NCBI RefSeq assembly: GCF_025506355.1
Contig: NZ_JANZYP010000035.1
Location: 23,865-87,864, forward strand
Length of the DNA: 64,000 bases
Source of the DNA: Sphaerisporangium corydalis
GTDB lineage: Bacteria > Actinomycetota > Actinomycetes > Streptosporangiales > Streptosporangiaceae
Reading direction: 5' to 3'
Under the pieces are notes generated by a model. The model was not told the origin of the DNA, searched no databases, and saw nothing but the letters and a program-made list of their open reading frames with translations. Position numbers and translations under genes: made by a program. Below are positions 19,747 through 26,911 of this stretch, one piece after another. Every line of letters starts with the position of its first letter. The first letter of the stretch is position 1.

Positions 19747-19760
19747 CCCACCCCGGCAGG

Positions 19761-19900
19761 TCAAGGGCGGGCGGTCAGTGCCCTGGCGGGTCGGGGGCGG
19801 GCGGTCAGTGCCCCGGCAGGTCGAGGGTGGGCGGTCGGCGGGTCGAGGGCGGGGGCGGTGCCCTGGCGGGTCGAGGGTGGGTGGTCAGTCGCCTGGCAGG
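19761..19900. repeat. Five degenerate ~30-bp tandem repeats at the gvpK 3' end
   Basis: Units begin at 19761, 19791, 19821, 19843 and 19871, with lengths 30, 30, 22, 28 and 30 bp. The last unit contains the final codons and stop of gvpK, so the other four look like duplications of the gene's 3' end spreading downstream. The array fills the gap between mshC and gvpK. No separate terminator is visible. Confidence 0.8.
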
Positions 19901-20442
19901 AGGGTGCCGAGGGGGCCGAGGTCGAGGTTCAGGTCGGCGGGGGTCAGGTCGAAGCGCTCGCACAGCTCCGTCATCGCCTCCTCCAGCCGCATCAGCGTCA
20001 GCCCGAGCGTCTCGACCTGGGCGTCGGACAGGTCGCCCTGGTCCATCCGGTGGACGCACTGGCGCTCCACGAGCTGGCGTACCAGCTCCACCAGCGTGAG
20101 GACCAGCCGGGTCAGGTCGCGCTCGACCGTCTCGGGATCGGTCTCCAGATGCCACCGCCCCGACCGCGACTCCAGACCCCCCTCGCTCGCCCGTGGACGC
20201 CCTTCCGCGCGGTCGCCCGCTCGCGAGCGTCCTTCCGCACGGTCGCCTGTCCGTGGACGCCTCTCCGCGCGGTCGCCTGCTCGCGAACGCCCTTCCTCGC
20301 GGCCGTTCGCCCGTGGGCGTCCTTCCCCGCGATCGGTTGTCCGTGGGCGCCCTTCGGCGCGATCGCTTGTCCGTGGGCGCCCTTCGGCGCGGTCGCCGAT
20401 GTGGGGGCGGTGCGGGGTGGGGTCAGAGGGGGGTGCCGCCAT
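19885..20442 (-). CDS. gvpK: Gas vesicle protein GvpK with an N-terminal decapeptide repeat
   Basis: GvpK is an accessory protein needed for gas vesicle assembly. The 185-residue protein has its conserved core at about residues 90-180 (ETVERDLTRLVLTLVELVRQLVERQ and LGLTLMRLEEAMTELCERFDL). In front are seven ten-residue repeats (residues 16-85) close to GDRAEGRPRT, rich in Arg, Asp and Glu and probably disordered. GvpK proteins are usually near 90-150 residues, so this extension is an added feature. ATG 20442 lies inside gvpS (20-nt overlap). It is the last gene of the operon. Confidence 0.93.
   Translation of the reverse strand: MAAPPSDPTPHRPHIGDRAEGRPRTSDRAEGRPRTTDRGEGRPRANGREEGRSRAGDRAERRPRTGDRAEGRSRAGDRAEGRPRASEGGLESRSGRWHLETDPETVERDLTRLVLTLVELVRQLVERQCVHRMDQGDLSDAQVETLGLTLMRLEEAMTELCERFDLTPADLNLDLGPLGTLLPGD
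20188..20397 (-). repeat. Seven in-frame 30-bp repeats in gvpK
   Basis: There are seven exact-length 30-bp units (210 bp), each coding ten residues of the type GDRAEGRPRT. Copies differ by a few substitutions and the frame is always kept, showing expansion under selection for an open frame. Confidence 0.85.
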
Positions 20443-20668
20443 GGCGGACTCCCGTCTCCAGCGGCTCCGACGCCCGGACCGACATGATCAGCGCCCGCAG
20501 GGAGATGCGCACCAGGTCGATGTCGGCGATGGACAGCACCAGGTCACCGGTGATCACGACGCCGCCGGCCAGCAGCCGGTCGAGCAGGTCCACCAGCGCG
20601 ACGCGCTCGGCGGGCAGCCGCCCCTCGGCCGCCAGCCCCGCCCCCCTCGGCGCGACCTCACGCCCCAT
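20423..20668 (-). CDS. gvpS: Gas vesicle protein GvpS (GvpA/J family)
   Basis: This is an 81-residue minor protein related to the shell protein GvpA. The family core LVDLLDRLLAGGVVITGDLVLSIADIDLVRISLRALI occupies about residues 25-61, with short polar ends. The name follows the L-S-K gene order used in Streptomyces gas vesicle clusters. It overlaps gvpL by 11 nt and gvpK by 20 nt. Confidence 0.88.
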   Translation of the reverse strand: MGREVAPRGAGLAAEGRLPAERVALVDLLDRLLAGGVVITGDLVLSIADIDLVRISLRALIMSVRASEPLETGVRHGGTPL

Positions 20669-21659
20669 CGCGACCCTCCCGGCCCTGACGGTCCTCGGGA
20701 CCCCGGTGGTCCTCCTGGTCCTGGTGGGTCTCCCGGCCCTGACGATCGTCCGGACCCCGGTGGTCCTCCTGGTCCTGGTGGGTCTCCCGGCTCCGGCGGT
20801 CGTCCGGGCCCCGGTGGTCCTCCTGGTCAGGGTGGTCCTCCTCGTCAGGGTGGGTCTCCCGGCTCTGGGGGGCCTCGCGGGGGCGGCCGTCGGGTTCCAG
20901 GTCGGTGAAGGAGTACGGTGCCCAGGGGCCGGTCAGTTCGATCTCGATGCCGGGCTCGCGTAGCAGGTCGAGCAGGGCGGCGAACTCGTCGCGGCGGTCC
21001 TCCTCGACCAGGTAGGCGCCGTTCAGCAGCATCTGGTCGTCGCGGCCGGACAGTTGCGGGTCCTGCGGCCGGTGACGCCTGGTCGCGACCGAGACGTCCG
21101 CCAGGGTGCCGTGGACGCGCTCGGCGTGCTCGGCCGACCGCCGCCAGGCGTCGTCCCGGTCGCGCAGGCTCGCCTTGCGGCGCTTGAGGTAGTCGGTGCC
21201 CGGGCTGGCGCTCGCCGCAGGTTGGGGGGCGGCGGCGGGCCCGGCGGGCGGCGCGGCGGGGCGCTCGGCGTAGGCCTTGACGCCCCACTCCTGGCAGCCG
21301 GTCACCCGGGCCAGGACGGCGGCGAAGTCGTCGTGCCGCCGGTCGAGCATCTCGCGGACCTGGGCCTCGCCGCTGTACACCGTCACCAGCCGCACCGGGG
21401 CGGTCGGGGCGGTCCCGGCGACGGTCTCCACGACGTGGTGGTGGGCGCGGGCCGTCTCGCCGACCCAGTCCAGGTCCTCGAGCGACCGGCGCAGCGGTCC
21501 TTCCCCGAACTCGCCCAGGGGCACGGTGCTCACGTAGGCGAGCAGCCCGGCGTGCTCCACGGCGTGGACCGGGGCGCCCGCCACACCCGCCAGGCCGTCC
21601 AGCCCCGGCCCGGGGCCCGCGCGGGTGACCGCGTACAGGTAGGTGCCGGTGTCAGCCAC
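20658..21659 (-). CDS. gvpL: Gas vesicle protein GvpL/GvpF family with C-terminal 18-residue repeats
   Basis: This 333-residue GvpL/GvpF-family protein is an accessory that binds the shell protein during vesicle assembly. The family start TYLYAVTRAG and the closing segment LTGPWAPYSF bracket the folded part (about residues 4-258). A hydrophilic tail of about 75 residues follows, built from copies of SRETHQDQEDHRGPDDRQ. GGAGGA lies 5 nt before GTG 21659. The GTG just upstream (21662) is too close to it. Its start overlaps gvpJ by 8 nt. Confidence 0.92.
   Translation of the reverse strand: MADTGTYLYAVTRAGPGPGLDGLAGVAGAPVHAVEHAGLLAYVSTVPLGEFGEGPLRRSLEDLDWVGETARAHHHVVETVAGTAPTAPVRLVTVYSGEAQVREMLDRRHDDFAAVLARVTGCQEWGVKAYAERPAAPPAGPAAAPQPAASASPGTDYLKRRKASLRDRDDAWRRSAEHAERVHGTLADVSVATRRHRPQDPQLSGRDDQMLLNGAYLVEEDRRDEFAALLDLLREPGIEIELTGPWAPYSFTDLEPDGRPREAPQSRETHPDEEDHPDQEDHRGPDDRRSRETHQDQEDHRGPDDRQGRETHQDQEDHRGPEDRQGREGRDGA
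20685..20864 (-). repeat. In-frame 54-bp repeats in the gvpL tail
   Basis: Two nearly identical 54-bp units (20685-20738, 20739-20792) and a longer 72-bp variant (20793-20864) encode the His/Asp/Gln/Arg-rich tail. On the opposite strand the same DNA happens to read as Gly-X-Y triplets. Confidence 0.85.
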
Positions 21660-22293
21660 CACGGTCCTCCCGACCGCCGGCACGGTACACGCCGCCCCGC
21701 CCACGCGCCCCGTTACCGCGCGCCTCGTCATCGCGGCCCCTGTCGAGCGCCTCGTCATCCCGGGCTCCGGTGCCTCCCGCCTCGTCCTCGCGGGACCTGC
21801 GGCGTGTCTCGTCCTCGCGGAACCTGCCGCGCGCCCCGTCATCGCGGGACCCGCGGCGCGTTTCGTCGCGGGCTCTGACGCGGGTTTCGTCGTCGTGGCC
21901 TCTGGCGTACGCGCCGTTGGCGCGGGCGGCCTCGATGGAGCGGGAGTCGCCGGACGTCAGGGCCTCAGGGCCCTCCTCCACGGCGGCGAGGCGGTGGCGC
22001 AGGCGCCGGTTCTCCTCGACCAGGTCGCGGTCCTTGGAGCTGAGCCACGGGTCGTGCTCCCACCAGTCGATGCCGAGCTCGCGCGCGGTGTCGACCGAGG
22101 CGATCAGCAGCCGCAGCTTGATGGTGAGCAGCTCGATGTCCAGGAGGTTCACCCGGATGTCGCCGACGATCACCACACCCCTGTCGAGGACCCGCTCCAG
22201 GATGTCGCCGAGGTTGCCCCCCGAGTCGCGCGCGGCGGGCGCACGCGACCCGTAGGACTGCGAGATGTTGGCCGGGCGCGTCGGGTCGGACAT
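21652..22293 (-). CDS. gvpJ: Gas vesicle protein GvpJ with charged C-terminal tail
   Basis: This is a minor shell-type protein of 213 residues. The GvpA/J core (NLGDILERVLDRGVVIVGDIRVNLLDIELLTIKLRLLIASVDTARE) spans about residues 20-70, then a short coiled-coil-like stretch (KDRDLVEENRRLRHRLAAVEE). The last 80 residues are a disordered repeat of RDDE, REDE and RRGS words, nearly balanced in charge. GvpJ proteins are usually near 80-130 residues. The start lies 1 nt after the gvpO stop. Confidence 0.92.
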   Translation of the reverse strand: MSDPTRPANISQSYGSRAPAARDSGGNLGDILERVLDRGVVIVGDIRVNLLDIELLTIKLRLLIASVDTARELGIDWWEHDPWLSSKDRDLVEENRRLRHRLAAVEEGPEALTSGDSRSIEAARANGAYARGHDDETRVRARDETRRGSRDDGARGRFREDETRRRSREDEAGGTGARDDEALDRGRDDEARGNGARGRGGVYRAGGREDRGG

Positions 22294-22294
22294 G

Positions 22295-22804
22295 TCAGTA
22301 CGCTCCGCCCGAGTCGCCCTTGGCGCGCTTGAAGCACCGCACCCTGCGGTACGACACCAGGTCGCCGCCGGCGTCCAGGTCCACCGCGTAGATCGCCAGG
22401 GTGTCACCCGAGGACGGGACGCGGTGGTCCTCGACCACCTCGACCTCGACGGTCCAGCCGCCGTCCCCCGGCCGCACCATCGTGACCCCCTCGATGTCCT
22501 TGCCGGTCAGCTCGCCCATGTACCGCAGCCCCGACCGGCCGGCGGTGGCCGCCGTCAGGCGCGGAGGCGCCTCCCTGCGCGCCACCCGGCGCATCCTCGG
22601 CCGCTCCGGCTCCTCGCCGGCGAGCTCCTCGTCCGGCTCCTCGTCCAGCGACTCCCCGTCAGGAGACTCCTCGTCCAGGAGTTCGTCCCCGGGTTCCCCG
22701 TCGTCGAAGGGCTCCTCGTCCACGCCGTCGTCGTACTGGACGGAGTCGCCGGGGACGTATCCGCCGGCGCCCCGCTCACCGTGGGTTCTGCGACTCGCGG
22801 GCAC
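22295..22804 (-). CDS. gvpO: Gas vesicle protein GvpO with acidic N-terminus
   Basis: This 169-residue protein has the GvpO domain in its second half: ELTGKDIEGVTMVRPGDGGWTVEVEVVED followed by IYAVDLDAGGDLVSYRRVRCFKR. The first 75 residues are strongly acidic (repeated DEE and DGE words) and probably disordered. GvpO is required for vesicle formation in haloarchaea and is conserved in actinomycete clusters. GTG 22804 has GGAAGG about 9 nt upstream. A gap of 48 nt separates it from gvpG. Confidence 0.9.
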   Translation of the reverse strand: MPASRRTHGERGAGGYVPGDSVQYDDGVDEEPFDDGEPGDELLDEESPDGESLDEEPDEELAGEEPERPRMRRVARREAPPRLTAATAGRSGLRYMGELTGKDIEGVTMVRPGDGGWTVEVEVVEDHRVPSSGDTLAIYAVDLDAGGDLVSYRRVRCFKRAKGDSGGAY

Positions 22805-22852
22805 GACATCACTTCCTTCCGCCGCCTCCCGGCTCCGGGCGGCGGCGCGCGG

Positions 22853-23074
22853 CTAGGAGATCATCCGCTGGAGGATCTCCTCCATGGCGGTGGCCGCCTC
22901 CTCCTCGGAGATGCGGCCGGCGGCCAGGGCCTCCTCCACCTCGTCGAGCTGCCGCCGCACGGCCGCCGGGTCGTGAAGCTGCTGGTCCACCTGTTCCTGT
23001 ATCAGCTCACCGAGCCGGATCAGCACCTGGACGGGCGCGAGCGGCCAGCCGAAGAGCACACCGAACAACCCCAT
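22853..23074 (-). CDS. gvpG: Gas vesicle protein GvpG
   Basis: This is a 73-residue helical accessory protein. It starts MGLFGVLFGWPLAPVQVLIRLGELIQEQ, a hydrophobic helix, and continues as an amphipathic helix DEVEEALAAGRISEEEAATAMEEIL. This matches GvpG, and its place after gvpF agrees. ATG 23074 is chosen over the upstream in-frame start because AGGAGGT lies about 12 nt before it. Confidence 0.9.
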   Translation of the reverse strand: MGLFGVLFGWPLAPVQVLIRLGELIQEQVDQQLHDPAAVRRQLDEVEEALAAGRISEEEAATAMEEILQRMIS

Positions 23075-23090
23075 GACCTGGAACGACCTC

Positions 23091-24182
23091 CTACATTCGC
23101 GTCGAGACGAAGTCGTAGGGCGCCTGGGGGCCGAGCAGCCGCAACGTGACACGCCCCGCCCACCTGCGGCCGAACTCGTCCAGGGCCTTCTCGAACTCCT
23201 CCTGCCCGGCGGTCTCGACCAGGGCGGCCAGATGCGCCGCGTCCTCCTCGTGGGTCGGCTCGCGGATCACGATCGACACGGCGTGCGGGGCCAGCCCCTC
23301 GGCCAGCGCCTGGGTGTCGGCGTCGCGCTTGGCCTCGATCGCCTCGTTGATGATCTCCCCGAGCCGGATCCGCGCGTCCCACGTCGCGTCCTCGGGCATG
23401 CCGCGGACGCGGTCGCGCAGCTCGGCGGCCTCCGGGCTCTCCTGGAGCACCTCCCTGAGCACCGTCCCCTCCTCGTAGCGCGCCTTGACCACGTACTGGG
23501 CCCGGCCCTCCAGGCTTTCCAGCGCGGCGCGGAACTCGTCGTGGTGCGGCACCAGGAACTCCCTGACGATCGCCTCCGGGCTCTCCATGACCGCCCCGAA
23601 GCGCAGCGGGAGCACCGGCACCTCGGCGGCCACGTCGTCCAGCAGGTGCTGGTGGGCCATCAGGTCCTGGGGCTTGCCGAGCGGGCGGTTCAGGTGGAGG
23701 TCGCTGACCAGCGCCGCGATGTCCTGGTGGCGCACCAGCCTGATCTCCCCTGGCGGGTCCCCGACGCCGCGCGCCTCCGGCGTCAGCTCGATGTCCCCGG
23801 GCAGCACGCCGTAGATGTACGAGGCGACCGCCAGCCCGTCCCCGGACGCGCCCTCGGCCTCGCCGGTCCTGCGCGCGGCGCCGTCGCGCCGGGCCTCGCC
23901 GTTCGCGGGGGCCCGCTCCGGGGGCCGGGCCTTGCGGCCGTTCCCGCCGGGAACCCTCTCCCCGGCCTGACCGGTCTCGGGTGCGGACGGATCCCGCTTC
24001 GGCCGGCCGGTGCCGGGAACGGACGGGTCCTGCCCCGGCCGGCCGGTCTCCGGGACGGACGGGTCCTGTCGCGGACGGCCGGTGCCGGGGGCGGACGGGC
24101 CGCGCCTCGGTTCGGCGGTCTCGCGGGTGGCGGCGCCCTGGCGGGACCTCTCCGCCGAGGGCCCTGGGGTGGAGCGGGTCAT
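23091..24182 (-). CDS. gvpF: Gas vesicle protein GvpF with long repetitive N-terminus
   Basis: This 363-residue protein contains a full GvpL/GvpF domain from about residue 118 (SYIYGVLPGDIELT) to the end (LRLLGPQAPYDFV). GvpF contacts GvpA and helps to start vesicle growth. The first 115 residues are a low-complexity extension containing 12-residue repeats like GRPRQDPSVPET. The only plausible start is ATG 24182, 1 nt after gvpA, so the extension is translated. Typical GvpF proteins lack it. Confidence 0.92.
   Translation of the reverse strand: MTRSTPGPSAERSRQGAATRETAEPRRGPSAPGTGRPRQDPSVPETGRPGQDPSVPGTGRPKRDPSAPETGQAGERVPGGNGRKARPPERAPANGEARRDGAARRTGEAEGASGDGLAVASYIYGVLPGDIELTPEARGVGDPPGEIRLVRHQDIAALVSDLHLNRPLGKPQDLMAHQHLLDDVAAEVPVLPLRFGAVMESPEAIVREFLVPHHDEFRAALESLEGRAQYVVKARYEEGTVLREVLQESPEAAELRDRVRGMPEDATWDARIRLGEIINEAIEAKRDADTQALAEGLAPHAVSIVIREPTHEEDAAHLAALVETAGQEEFEKALDEFGRRWAGRVTLRLLGPQAPYDFVSTRM
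23970..24107 (-). repeat. In-frame 36-bp repeats in gvpF
   Basis: About four 36-bp units encode 12-residue copies around RPRQDPSVPETG at residues 26-71 of GvpF. All units keep the frame. Confidence 0.75.
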
Positions 24183-24183
24183 C

Positions 24184-24591
24184 TCAGTCCTCCTCTCGCC
24201 TGCGCCTGCGGCGCGGCGCGGGTTCCTCGGCGGGCTCCATGAAGTCGCGGAGCTTGTCGCCCGCCGCCTCCAGGGCGCCCTGCGCGATGCCCTTGGTCTT
24301 GGACGAGGCGACGCCCTGCGTCATGTCCTGCATCACCTCGGGAAGGCCCTTCGACCCCTCCGCGAGGTCCAGCCGGTTCACCGCCTGGGCGAACCGCAGG
24401 TAGGTGTCGACGCTGGCCACCACGATGCGGGCGTTGATGGTCAGCAGCTCGATGCCCACCAGGGCCACGCTGACGTACACGTCGATGACCAGGCCCTTGT
24501 CCAGGATCGTGTCGATGACGTCGGCCAGCCCGCTGCCGCCGCCCGACGGCTTGCCCGCCGCCCCGCCCCCTGAGGGCTGCACGATGGTCAT
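24184..24591 (-). CDS. gvpA: Gas vesicle shell protein GvpA
   Basis: This is the main structural protein of the gas vesicle wall. The hydrophobic core ([51 protein letters not shown]) spans about residues 21-71. The 135-residue protein has an extra C-terminal part of about 55 residues ending in Arg6-Glu-Glu-Asp. Actinomycete GvpA proteins are often longer than the 70-residue cyanobacterial form. GAGGAG lies 8 nt before ATG 24591; an in-frame GTG at 24600 overlaps that site and is rejected. Confidence 0.94.
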
Positions 24592-24651
24592 CGGCCCCAC
24601 TCCTCGCTGTCGATCCGCGCGATGCCTCGGTGACCCGCTGTGCCGGCCATC

Positions 24652-26040
24652 TCAGCGTTCCTCGTCCTCGCCCCGCGCACGGCGGCGCGGCGGCGGGGTC
24701 TCCCCGGTCTCGGCGCGGCGGCGCCGGCGCGGGGGGGTCTCCTCGTCCCGGGCCTTGGCCCGCCGGCGCGGCGGCGGCGCGTCGTCCTCGTCGGAGGGCT
24801 CGGGCCTGCGGCGCGGTCGCTCGGCGGCGCCGTTCCCCGGCGCCTCCGCCTTGCCGTTGCCCGAGTGGCCCGCCGAGCCGTTGCCGGAGTGCCCCTTCGC
24901 GCCGTTCCCGGACGAGCCGTTCCCCGCCGAGCCGTTCCCGGCCGGCCGGTCCCCGCCCTCGCCGCCCCCTGCGGTGGCCCCGGCCTTCTCCTCGGACCCG
25001 CGCGACCGGCCGCGCCTGGCCCAGGGACGGCGCCGGCGCTTCTCGCCGGTGTCCGCCGCGGCCTCCTCCTCGTCCTTAGGTTCGCCCTCTTCGCCCTCTT
25101 CGCCCTCTTCGTCTCCGGGCTCGCCCTCGTCCTCCTCCTCGCCGCCGGTGGCCTCGTCCTCCTCGCCCTCGGGGGCCTGGTCCTCGGCGCCGCCCTCTTC
25201 TTCCCGCTCGCTCTCCTCGCGCTCGCGCTCCTCTTCCTCCTCGCGGACGGCGGTCTCGTGGTCCTTGACGACCTCGCCCTCGTGGATCACGCCGCGCCAG
25301 CCCTCGACCTCGTCGGGGTTCAGCAGCGATTGGGTCATCACGTACCGCCGGAAGTGCTTGAACTCCAGGCGGGCACGGCGGCCCTGCACGCGCCAGATGA
25401 GGCCGATGTGCTCCATCAGCCCCTTGGGGTGGTATTCGAGCACCATCAGGATCCGGGTCAGGTCCGGGGTGACGGAATGGAAGGTCAGCGCCCCGTCGAC
25501 GTACCCCTTGGCCCCGCTGGACCGCCAGATGATCTTGTCGTCGGGCACCTGCTCGGAGATGGTGGACTGCCAGGTCCGCCGCGACCAGATGATCTTCGCC
25601 TGCCAGGTGAGCTTCTGGTCCTCGTCCTGGACGACCTTCTCGACCTTCTTCATGAAGCTCGGGAAGTCCTGGAACTGGGTCCACTGGTCGTAGACGATCC
25701 GGATCGGGGCGCCGACGTCCATCGTCTCGACGATGTTGAGGAACTTGAACTGCTTGCCCTTGGCGCCCCGCCCGCCGAACCCGAGCTTCTTCTTCAGGCC
25801 GCCCCACGCCATCTTGGCGAAGCCCTTGATCTTTCCCGTGCCGCCCTCGGACCCGGCGAGCTGGCCCAGCGTGTGGACCCCGTCGCCCTCGGCGATGCCG
25901 GTCAGCCGGTGGGTGGTCTGCTCGACCCGGCGCTTGACCGCCGACATCGCCAGCTTGCCCGCCATCCCGGCCAGGCCCCTGAGCTGCTGCTTGATCGGGT
26001 TCACCACCGAGGTGGCGCCGCCCTTGCCCTCGTCGGCCAT
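24652..26040 (-). CDS. gvpZ: SRPBCC-domain gas vesicle cluster protein (GvpZ-like)
   Basis: This 462-residue protein is probably accessory to gas vesicles. An N-terminal helical part (1-95) precedes an SRPBCC/START-like lipid- or hydrophobic-ligand fold (about 96-265: NIVETMDVGAPIRIVYDQW to WRGVIHEGE). A 200-residue tail follows with a Glu/Asp-rich tract, GNGS-type repeats and Arg clusters. In Streptomyces clusters two extra genes called gvpY and gvpZ occur; from memory the SRPBCC protein is GvpZ, so the letter is tentative. It begins 3 nt after the previous stop. Confidence 0.82.
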   Translation of the reverse strand: MADEGKGGATSVVNPIKQQLRGLAGMAGKLAMSAVKRRVEQTTHRLTGIAEGDGVHTLGQLAGSEGGTGKIKGFAKMAWGGLKKKLGFGGRGAKGKQFKFLNIVETMDVGAPIRIVYDQWTQFQDFPSFMKKVEKVVQDEDQKLTWQAKIIWSRRTWQSTISEQVPDDKIIWRSSGAKGYVDGALTFHSVTPDLTRILMVLEYHPKGLMEHIGLIWRVQGRRARLEFKHFRRYVMTQSLLNPDEVEGWRGVIHEGEVVKDHETAVREEEEEREREESEREEEGGAEDQAPEGEEDEATGGEEEDEGEPGDEEGEEGEEGEPKDEEEAAADTGEKRRRRPWARRGRSRGSEEKAGATAGGGEGGDRPAGNGSAGNGSSGNGAKGHSGNGSAGHSGNGKAEAPGNGAAERPRRRPEPSDEDDAPPPRRRAKARDEETPPRRRRRAETGETPPPRRRARGEDEER

Positions 26041-26043
26041 CGG

Positions 26044-26766
26044 TCAGCCCCGTGTCCTGCGCACCGGCCGGGAGCGCGGCGTCGCCTGGTCGCGGACCAC
26101 CCGGCCGCGCGGGGCGGGCTCGTCGTCCTCGTCATCGGGCTCGTCGTCGTCCTCGTCCTCCTCCACCGGGGCGCGCTTGGACGAGGCCCGGCCCCTGGCC
26201 GCGGGCGCGCGGCGCGCGGGCGGCTCCTCCTCTTCCTCCTCCTCCTCCTCTTCGTACTCGTCGTACGGCTCTTCCTCGTCTTCGTCTTCGTCCTCGTCCT
26301 CGGCGGGACGGATCCGGGACTTGGCGCCCCGCACCCCGCCGGCCGCCTTGTCCCGCACGCCCTTCACGCCGCCTCGCGCCGTCTTCGTCACGCCCTCGGC
26401 CGCGTCCTCGACGGCGTCCTCCAGGCCCGCGGCGACGTCGGCCGCGTGCTGCAGGGCCTCGGCCCGCGCCTGGAGCTTGTCGCTCAGCGAGCTGACCTGC
26501 CTGGTCGCGGCGGCCTTCGCGGCGGCCTTGCCGGCCTGGAACAGCTCGCCCCGGACGCTGGTCACGATCTTCTCAAGCTCGGGGGAGGAGCTGATCAGCT
26601 TCATCCCCTGTCCCAGCAGGTGCCCGCCGGCCCCGCCGAGGCGGCCGGTCGCCCCGGCCGTGGCCAGCGCGATGGCGAGCTTGAACTTCCGGTGCCGGCC
26701 GAGGAGGTAGCCCAGGGCAACGGCTACGGCCACTTTCAGTCCGCCTGTCACGACTGCCTCCTTCAT
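26044..26766 (-). CDS. gvpY: Gas vesicle cluster protein, GvpY-like, with acidic tail
   Basis: This 240-residue protein starts with one hydrophobic segment (KEAVVTGGLKVAVAVALGYLLGRHRKF, about residues 2-28), then an Ala-rich helical region of about 120 residues, then a disordered tail with a run of ten Glu and many Asp-Glu pairs. The tail is encoded by CTC/CTT trinucleotide tracts near 26230-26310. It is the first gene of the operon and could tether vesicle assembly to a membrane, which is inference. ATG 26766 is used; a TTG at 26778 would add four residues. Confidence 0.72.
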   Translation of the reverse strand: MKEAVVTGGLKVAVAVALGYLLGRHRKFKLAIALATAGATGRLGGAGGHLLGQGMKLISSSPELEKIVTSVRGELFQAGKAAAKAAATRQVSSLSDKLQARAEALQHAADVAAGLEDAVEDAAEGVTKTARGGVKGVRDKAAGGVRGAKSRIRPAEDEDEDEDEEEPYDEYEEEEEEEEEEPPARRAPAARGRASSKRAPVEEDEDDDEPDDEDDEPAPRGRVVRDQATPRSRPVRRTRG

Positions 26767-26790: not shown

Positions 26791-26816
26791 CTACCCCCCC
26801 CATCTGTGCATACAAC
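26791..26816 (-). promoter_or_regulatory. Possible SigB-like promoter of the gas vesicle operon
   Basis: On the minus strand GTTG (26816-26813) and GGGTAG (26796-26791) are 16 nt apart, close to the stress sigma factor pattern GNNT-N14-16-GGGTAY. The match is imperfect (GTTG rather than GNNT, final G rather than Y) and the second box sits in a G-run. Confidence 0.25.
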
Positions 26817-26911
26817 GCTCGTTGCCGGAAAAAGGAGACATAGCACGCACAGAACGTAAGGTTCGGTGCGAATGCCGGAAAACGCCGTCCACGCGGACGG
26901 AGACGAAGGGC

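Follow-up and report, generated by a model that had tools for sequence, protein, structure and literature searches.

The gas vesicle operon of Sphaerisporangium corydalis lies within a stretch of 64,000 nucleotides (contig NZ_JANZYP010000035.1, positions 23,865 to 87,864 of the forward strand; hereafter the window), and it encodes accessory gas vesicle proteins (Gvps) with long charged or repetitive extensions. These extensions are not a single phenomenon. The tails of GvpY, GvpZ and GvpJ are tethers of a general kind, in contrast to the fast-changing minisatellites of GvpK, GvpF and GvpL, which are unusually long here. We tentatively favor, with a probability of about 0.45, the interpretation that the accessory Gvps are folded cores equipped with flexible tethers, that a motif at the end of GvpY docks onto a partner and that the repeats of GvpK, GvpF and GvpL are largely tolerated. 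All ten genes of the operon are located on the minus strand (26751..19885) in the order Y Z A F G O J L S K and encode 2,249 residues in total (GvpL counted as 333 amino acids [aa]). As in other actinobacterial gas vesicle operons, gvpA, F, G, O, J, L, S and K form a single co-directional cluster. The locus is thus an actinobacterial gas vesicle operon of the YZ-AFGO-JLSK layout without GvpN, known here from its genes alone. Pfam matches cover the cores of nine of the ten products (Z by Polyketide_cyc, and A, F, G, O, J, L, S and K). The gvpY-like and gvpZ-like genes were recognized by homology to relatives, and their names were carried over by position from the Streptomyces coelicolor order. 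The comparison set contained no Streptomyces proteins, and the Serratia proteins that are also named GvpY and GvpZ were outside the comparison.

An earlier note on this DNA had ascribed large low-complexity extensions to seven of the ten products and had placed them outside the standard Gvp domains. Both statements were borne out, and the extensions lie beyond the Pfam cores. GvpK carries a head of 92 aa with a net charge of +6 and seven repeats of 30 base pairs (bp) or 10 aa (20167..20442), and GvpF a head of 113 aa, net +7, with 36-bp (12-aa) repeats (23844..24182). The tail of GvpL comprises 72 aa, net −13, with 54-bp (18-aa) repeats (20661..20876), and the acidic head of GvpO 68 aa, net −22 (22601..22804). 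GvpZ ends in a tail of 196 aa, net −23, that runs from a Glu block through a Gly/Asn/Ser-rich stretch to an Arg block (24655..25242). Outside the core of GvpJ there are 127 aa with a net charge of 0. The first 25 or so form a conserved coiled-coil-like stretch, followed by a variable part of 102 aa, a mixture of Arg, Asp and Glu with 27-bp repeats (21655..21960). In GvpY, 105 aa with a net charge of −19 follow residue 130. The tail as a whole (residues 122-235; 26047..26388) consists of an acidic part rich in Asp, Glu and Tyr and a subsequent Arg patch. Charged, hydrophobe-poor segments made up 723 of the 2,249 residues (32%), compared with 1,713 of 90,049 residues (1.9%) in 246 control genes called in the rest of the window and in 308 kb of the same genome. 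Among 96 ten-gene control runs the maximum was 9.5%. The run with this value includes a frame with 396 flagged residues that was rejected as a real gene because it is mis-called, and which precedes what we take, from its sequence, to be a nitrite reductase gene.

Tandem repeats covered 20.2% of the operon and 3.2% of the control DNA, and none of 203 overlapping control windows attained the operon's value (highest 14.9%). Coverage was higher in the gvp operon than in its flanks at 58 of 79 loci. The repeat periods are multiples of three, and the arrays of GvpK, GvpL and GvpF are in-frame minisatellites. If the heads were not translated, or if the tails were produced by frameshifts, the extensions would be artefacts of annotation or assembly. 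The codon-position GC of the GvpK head is indeed atypical (0.84, 0.75 and 0.70 for the three positions), and an in-frame GTG at the 28th codon of the GvpO head would shorten it. In contrast, no alternative ATG, GTG or TTG start occurs beyond the first codon in the heads of GvpK or GvpF, ribosome-binding sites are present at the starts used, the repeat periods keep to multiples of three and extensions of the same kinds were found in independently sequenced relatives. An artefact is highly improbable.

The repeat data also bear on mutational drift, by which GC-rich minisatellites would grow in frame within tolerant disordered ends and the extra length would be functionless. The genome is rich in minisatellites elsewhere, as the control value demonstrates, and a 30-bp array is also present in non-coding DNA just past gvpK (19751-19897), adjoining a presumably cysteine-ligase-like gene. 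The extensions of GvpK, GvpF and GvpL are wholly different between species, and the low third-position GC of the GvpK head fits drift as well. However, no control window matches the operon in repeat coverage, operons exceed their flanks at most loci, the GvpK repeat units show a third-position excess and the tails of GvpY, GvpZ and GvpJ persist across families. Drift is rather improbable as the explanation of the extensions in general. It is probably right for much of GvpF and GvpL, and not for GvpY, GvpZ and GvpJ.

We compared the extensions with those of actinomycete homologues. Tails of GvpY, GvpZ and GvpJ are standard in the sampled actinomycetes (108 of 117, 119 of 127 and 119 of 130 distinct homologues, respectively), and a C-terminal extension of GvpA is found in nearly all sampled homologues. 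Heads of GvpF (8/132) and tails of GvpL (6/129) are rare, and the extensions of GvpO and GvpK are variable. The summed extensions of the operon are the largest of 117 operons (472 aa against a median of 125), with the longest GvpF head among them. Five operons appeared at or above the GvpL tail length of the window, which is an overcount, because the long "tails" of loci L040 (identical to L142) and L064 were rejected as segments that the profile had separated from the folded domain. The view that such extensions are unusual among homologues, which the earlier note would have given up had relatives shown the same tails, was thus upheld for GvpF, GvpL and the sum and failed for GvpY, GvpZ and GvpJ. 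The tails are largely a normal feature of actinobacterial Gvps that is exaggerated in this operon. Coordinated growth of the tails was rejected, as raw correlations of up to 0.62 fell to r = 0.13-0.27 after phylogenetic contrasts. A link between short GvpJ tails and the absence of adjacent YZ genes was dropped as well, because, of the 21 searched genomes without YZ beside the operon (G007 and G192 were set aside), 17 hold a strong GvpZ match (E < 1e-100) either elsewhere or, in the case of G230, close by on the opposite strand.

The charges of the extensions were then considered. Non-specific attraction between oppositely charged tails could gather the assembly factors as a condensate or cluster. 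The charged fraction is high (0.58 in the GvpZ tail, 0.49 in GvpJ and 0.49 in GvpO), GvpZ tails were net negative in 96% of 57 cases, acidity was greater in the first half in 49/57, and Arg was preferred over Lys (94% in tails versus 79% in cores). A published precedent is vesicle clustering by the GvpU phase transition in Bacillus (Li 2024, as cited in PMC11445434). Against such clustering, the net charges of the GvpK, GvpF, GvpL and GvpO extensions are not conserved across species, which makes a fixed code of opposite charges unlikely, and most sampled operons lack a charged 30-aa extension on any of these four proteins. The net charge of GvpK heads alone spans −11 to +15, and in L038 the head is a proline-rich repeat. 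The proposal that the tails differ in charge stood for the acidic tails of GvpO, GvpY and GvpZ. The head of GvpK is Arg-rich and nearly charge-balanced, and the charge scheme is not conserved. The variance of GvpJ tail charge was 0.34 of the binomial expectation over 80 species for the whole tail. This neutrality was dropped as evidence because the conserved stretch of the first 25 residues accounts for most of it. For the remainder of the tail the variance was 0.75 over 69 species, which is not significant (P 0.06), and 0.19 within the genus (11 species, P 0.003). Underdispersion of GvpA tail charge likewise reflects conserved sequence. Electrostatic clustering as the main principle is possible but doubtful, and electrostatics may assist in holding the assembly factors together.

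Composition has also been read in another way. Gvps of soil actinobacteria have been proposed to store nitrogen, which would account for their richness in Arg, Glu and Pro (PMC5839063, on Streptomyces). The same source reports that gvp genes are upregulated in an S. coelicolor argR mutant. Arg (16.5% versus 10%) and Pro (9.3% versus 5.1%) are indeed more frequent in tails than in cores. The commonest tail residue, however, is Glu (22% versus 9%), which is not nitrogen-rich, Lys, Asn and Gln are less frequent there than in cores, and neither a conserved terminal motif nor conserved folded cores would be expected of a store. A role as nitrogen store is very unlikely.

The evidence for a specific contact comes from GvpY, for which no Pfam or NCBIfam match was obtained at E ≤ 0.001. 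A Pfam scan of 50 GvpY sequences yielded scattered low-complexity matches, with HC2 once at 3.5e-8 and BUD22 in four sequences, and apolipoprotein-type matches at E 0.04 or weaker. The predicted model shows short hydrophobic helices and one long amphipathic helix up to residue 121, followed by a disordered tail without predicted secondary structure (predicted local distance difference test 43-56 by blocks). The GvpZ tail was predicted to be unstructured as well, which supports disorder of these two tails. A 30-aa window with a net charge of −10 or below is present in the tail of 58 of 70 named GvpY homologues. The tails cannot be aligned between families, in contrast to the last residues, where the window protein ends in PVRRTRG (26047..26067). 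Of 117 distinct GvpY proteins, 71 contained the pattern P[VIL]xR within their last 15 residues, with 1.46 expected from shuffled tails. GvpZ carried it in 28/127 (1.07 expected), and the other eight Gvps in 0 to 6 each. The motif proline is placed 6 or 7 residues from the GvpY end in 64 of the 71, with the consensus (R/A)PV(R)R(T/A/R)R. Among named loci with GvpY, 47 of 70 carry the motif, including members of Sphaerisporangium, Microbispora, Amycolatopsis, Rhodococcus, Nocardia, Gordonia and Plantactinospora. The species R. jostii and R. opacus (L149, L175) are among the carriers. By layout, it was present in 69/99 YZ-first operons and in 2/8 of other layouts. On a tree of 100 YZ-first tips it required 15 changes, compared with 29.6 when labels were shuffled. 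The conserved end of GvpY is a new point. Likened to a docking site, it suggests that one specific contact or more is made. From the model and the very weak apolipoprotein-type matches, GvpY resembles a membrane- or vesicle-associated helix protein, continued by an acidic spacer that ends in a basic motif.

Several results weigh against the tether interpretation. The pattern P[VIL]xR was picked after viewing the sequences; the expected count is therefore a guide and not a pre-planned test, and the presence of the motif in several families is the stronger argument. It is absent from 46/117 GvpY proteins, including three Micromonospora loci and Herbidospora loci, and from all ten of the OAFGYZJLSK layout. 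The GvpY model is weak (predicted template modelling score 0.30), so that surface binding by GvpY is a guess. Extension lengths of GvpF, GvpJ, GvpL and GvpK are only weakly correlated once phylogeny is accounted for. The GvpK head has a third-position GC of 0.70 against 0.96 in the core, and the GvpF repeat units show no third-position excess, both of which fit young, little-constrained insertions.

With these reservations, the tether interpretation can be outlined as follows. The accessory Gvps would consist of folded cores joined to disordered tethers. GvpY might sit on a hydrophobic surface, either the vesicle or a membrane, by its N-terminal helices. Its acidic tail would act as a spacer, and the (R/A)PVRRxR motif at the terminus would dock onto another component, perhaps a Gvp. 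GvpZ, with its START domain and acidic-then-Arg tail, and GvpJ could contribute weak contacts. Together, the tethers would keep the assembly factors close to growing vesicles. The long repeats of GvpK, GvpF and GvpL would be largely tolerated expansions that may raise valency. GvpN was not detected above cut-off in the own genome, where weak AAA-type matches occur. Across the 21 genomes searched no match exceeded the cut-off, and all gave such weak matches. In the absence of GvpN, disordered arms may help to hold the assembly factors together.

The gvp clusters of S. coelicolor have the order gvpO, A, F, G, Y, Z, J, L, S, K in PMC5839063, which also notes that Streptomyces Gvps are rich in Arg, Glu and Pro, and are listed as gvpOAFG-JLSK without N or C in PMC9501494. 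The window operon differs in having YZ first and O after G. Genomes of the same family that share the S. coelicolor layout carry homologues of the window GvpY and GvpZ at that place. All ten sampled GvpY proteins of this type lack the motif, and none of them is from Streptomyces. An S. coelicolor gvp cluster was tested in Escherichia coli and is not among the clusters named as vesicle-giving in the portions seen of PMC10344784. GvpU of Bacillus/Priestia megaterium, as cited in the part of PMC11445434 consulted, resembles the tail idea in its disorder-based organization of vesicles, whereas the extensions of the window are spread over seven proteins. No GvpU-type family was among the Pfam and NCBIfam matches of the ten proteins, a direct GvpU sequence comparison not having been made. 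The literature searched, mostly without subscription papers, yielded nothing on disordered tails in actinobacterial Gvps and nothing on the terminal motif of GvpY.

The individual genes were assigned as follows. gvpY (26044..26751, 235 aa) starts with a GTG at 26751 behind a strong AAGGAGG-type ribosome-binding site. Upstream, a candidate promoter, GCGTT-N17-GGGTAG (26791..26818, minus strand), resembles promoters of the SigB/SigF-type stress-sigma class. Similar sites precede 52 of 103 YZ-first operons compared with 5.7 in base shuffles, the spacing of the window candidate being one base longer than the scanned pattern. gvpZ (24652..26040, 462 aa) encodes a START/SRPBCC-fold protein by PF03364 (54 bits, cut-off 23.4; E 2.7e-14), its model and PDB matches. 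"SRPBCC protein" and "Z", previously listed separately, are the same protein. Its core (about residues 102-283) has the fold of ZhuI (3tfz) and DR_A0006 (3ggn), from which GvpZ differs by an extra N-terminal helical part and the long charged tail. gvpA (24184..24591, 135 aa) encodes the shell protein (PF00741 and NF006872 above cut-off). It is followed by gvpF (23091..24182, 363 aa; PF06386 on residues 121-359), gvpG (22853..23074, 73 aa without extension; PF05120), gvpO (22295..22804, 169 aa; PF05800 on residues 75-164) and gvpJ (21652..22293, 213 aa; PF00741). gvpL (20658..21662, 334 aa; PF06386) most likely starts at 21662, or at a second GTG at 21659, and not at the start of the longer open reading frame, as judged from the ribosome-binding site. 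gvpS (20423..20668, 81 aa; PF00741) has no unusual extension, and gvpK (19885..20442, 185 aa) matches PF05121 on residues 99-182.

Outside complete operons, gvpY-gvpZ pairs without other gvp genes in the stretch examined were observed at L150, L156, L170, L190 and L198 (Acrocarpospora, Herbidospora and Dactylosporangium), which suggests that GvpY and GvpZ may act apart from the vesicle genes. Six Actinomadura loci (L154, L177, L178, L180, L188 and L194) hold two gvpZ-like genes and no other gvp gene in the stretch examined. The best-scoring copy ends without a tail or with a tail of 10 aa. L103 (G211) contains two tandem gvp operons by core order, YZAFGOJLSK followed by ZAFGOJLSK. Far from the operon, a run of 27 G is closely followed by a run of 29 C (24-81 of the window), possibly an assembly or hairpin feature.

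The initiation and growth of gas vesicles are still open questions, and in the portions of the literature examined the actinomycete route without GvpN is not addressed. With roughly eight residues, the conserved motif that closes the disordered tail offers a compact target for deletion, so that one step is directly testable. The operon furthermore presents a naturally occurring set of repeats expanded in frame on conserved assembly factors, which lends itself to studying the function of disordered tails in bacteria. It is conceivable, if unlikely on present data, that actinomycetes of this type organize assembly without GvpN through a tethered network, in which GvpY, placed on the vesicle or a membrane, would catch a partner by the motif that terminates its long acidic spacer, GvpZ (sometimes with a like motif) and GvpJ would serve as further disordered arms and lineages would tune the network by in-frame repeats on GvpK, GvpL and GvpF.

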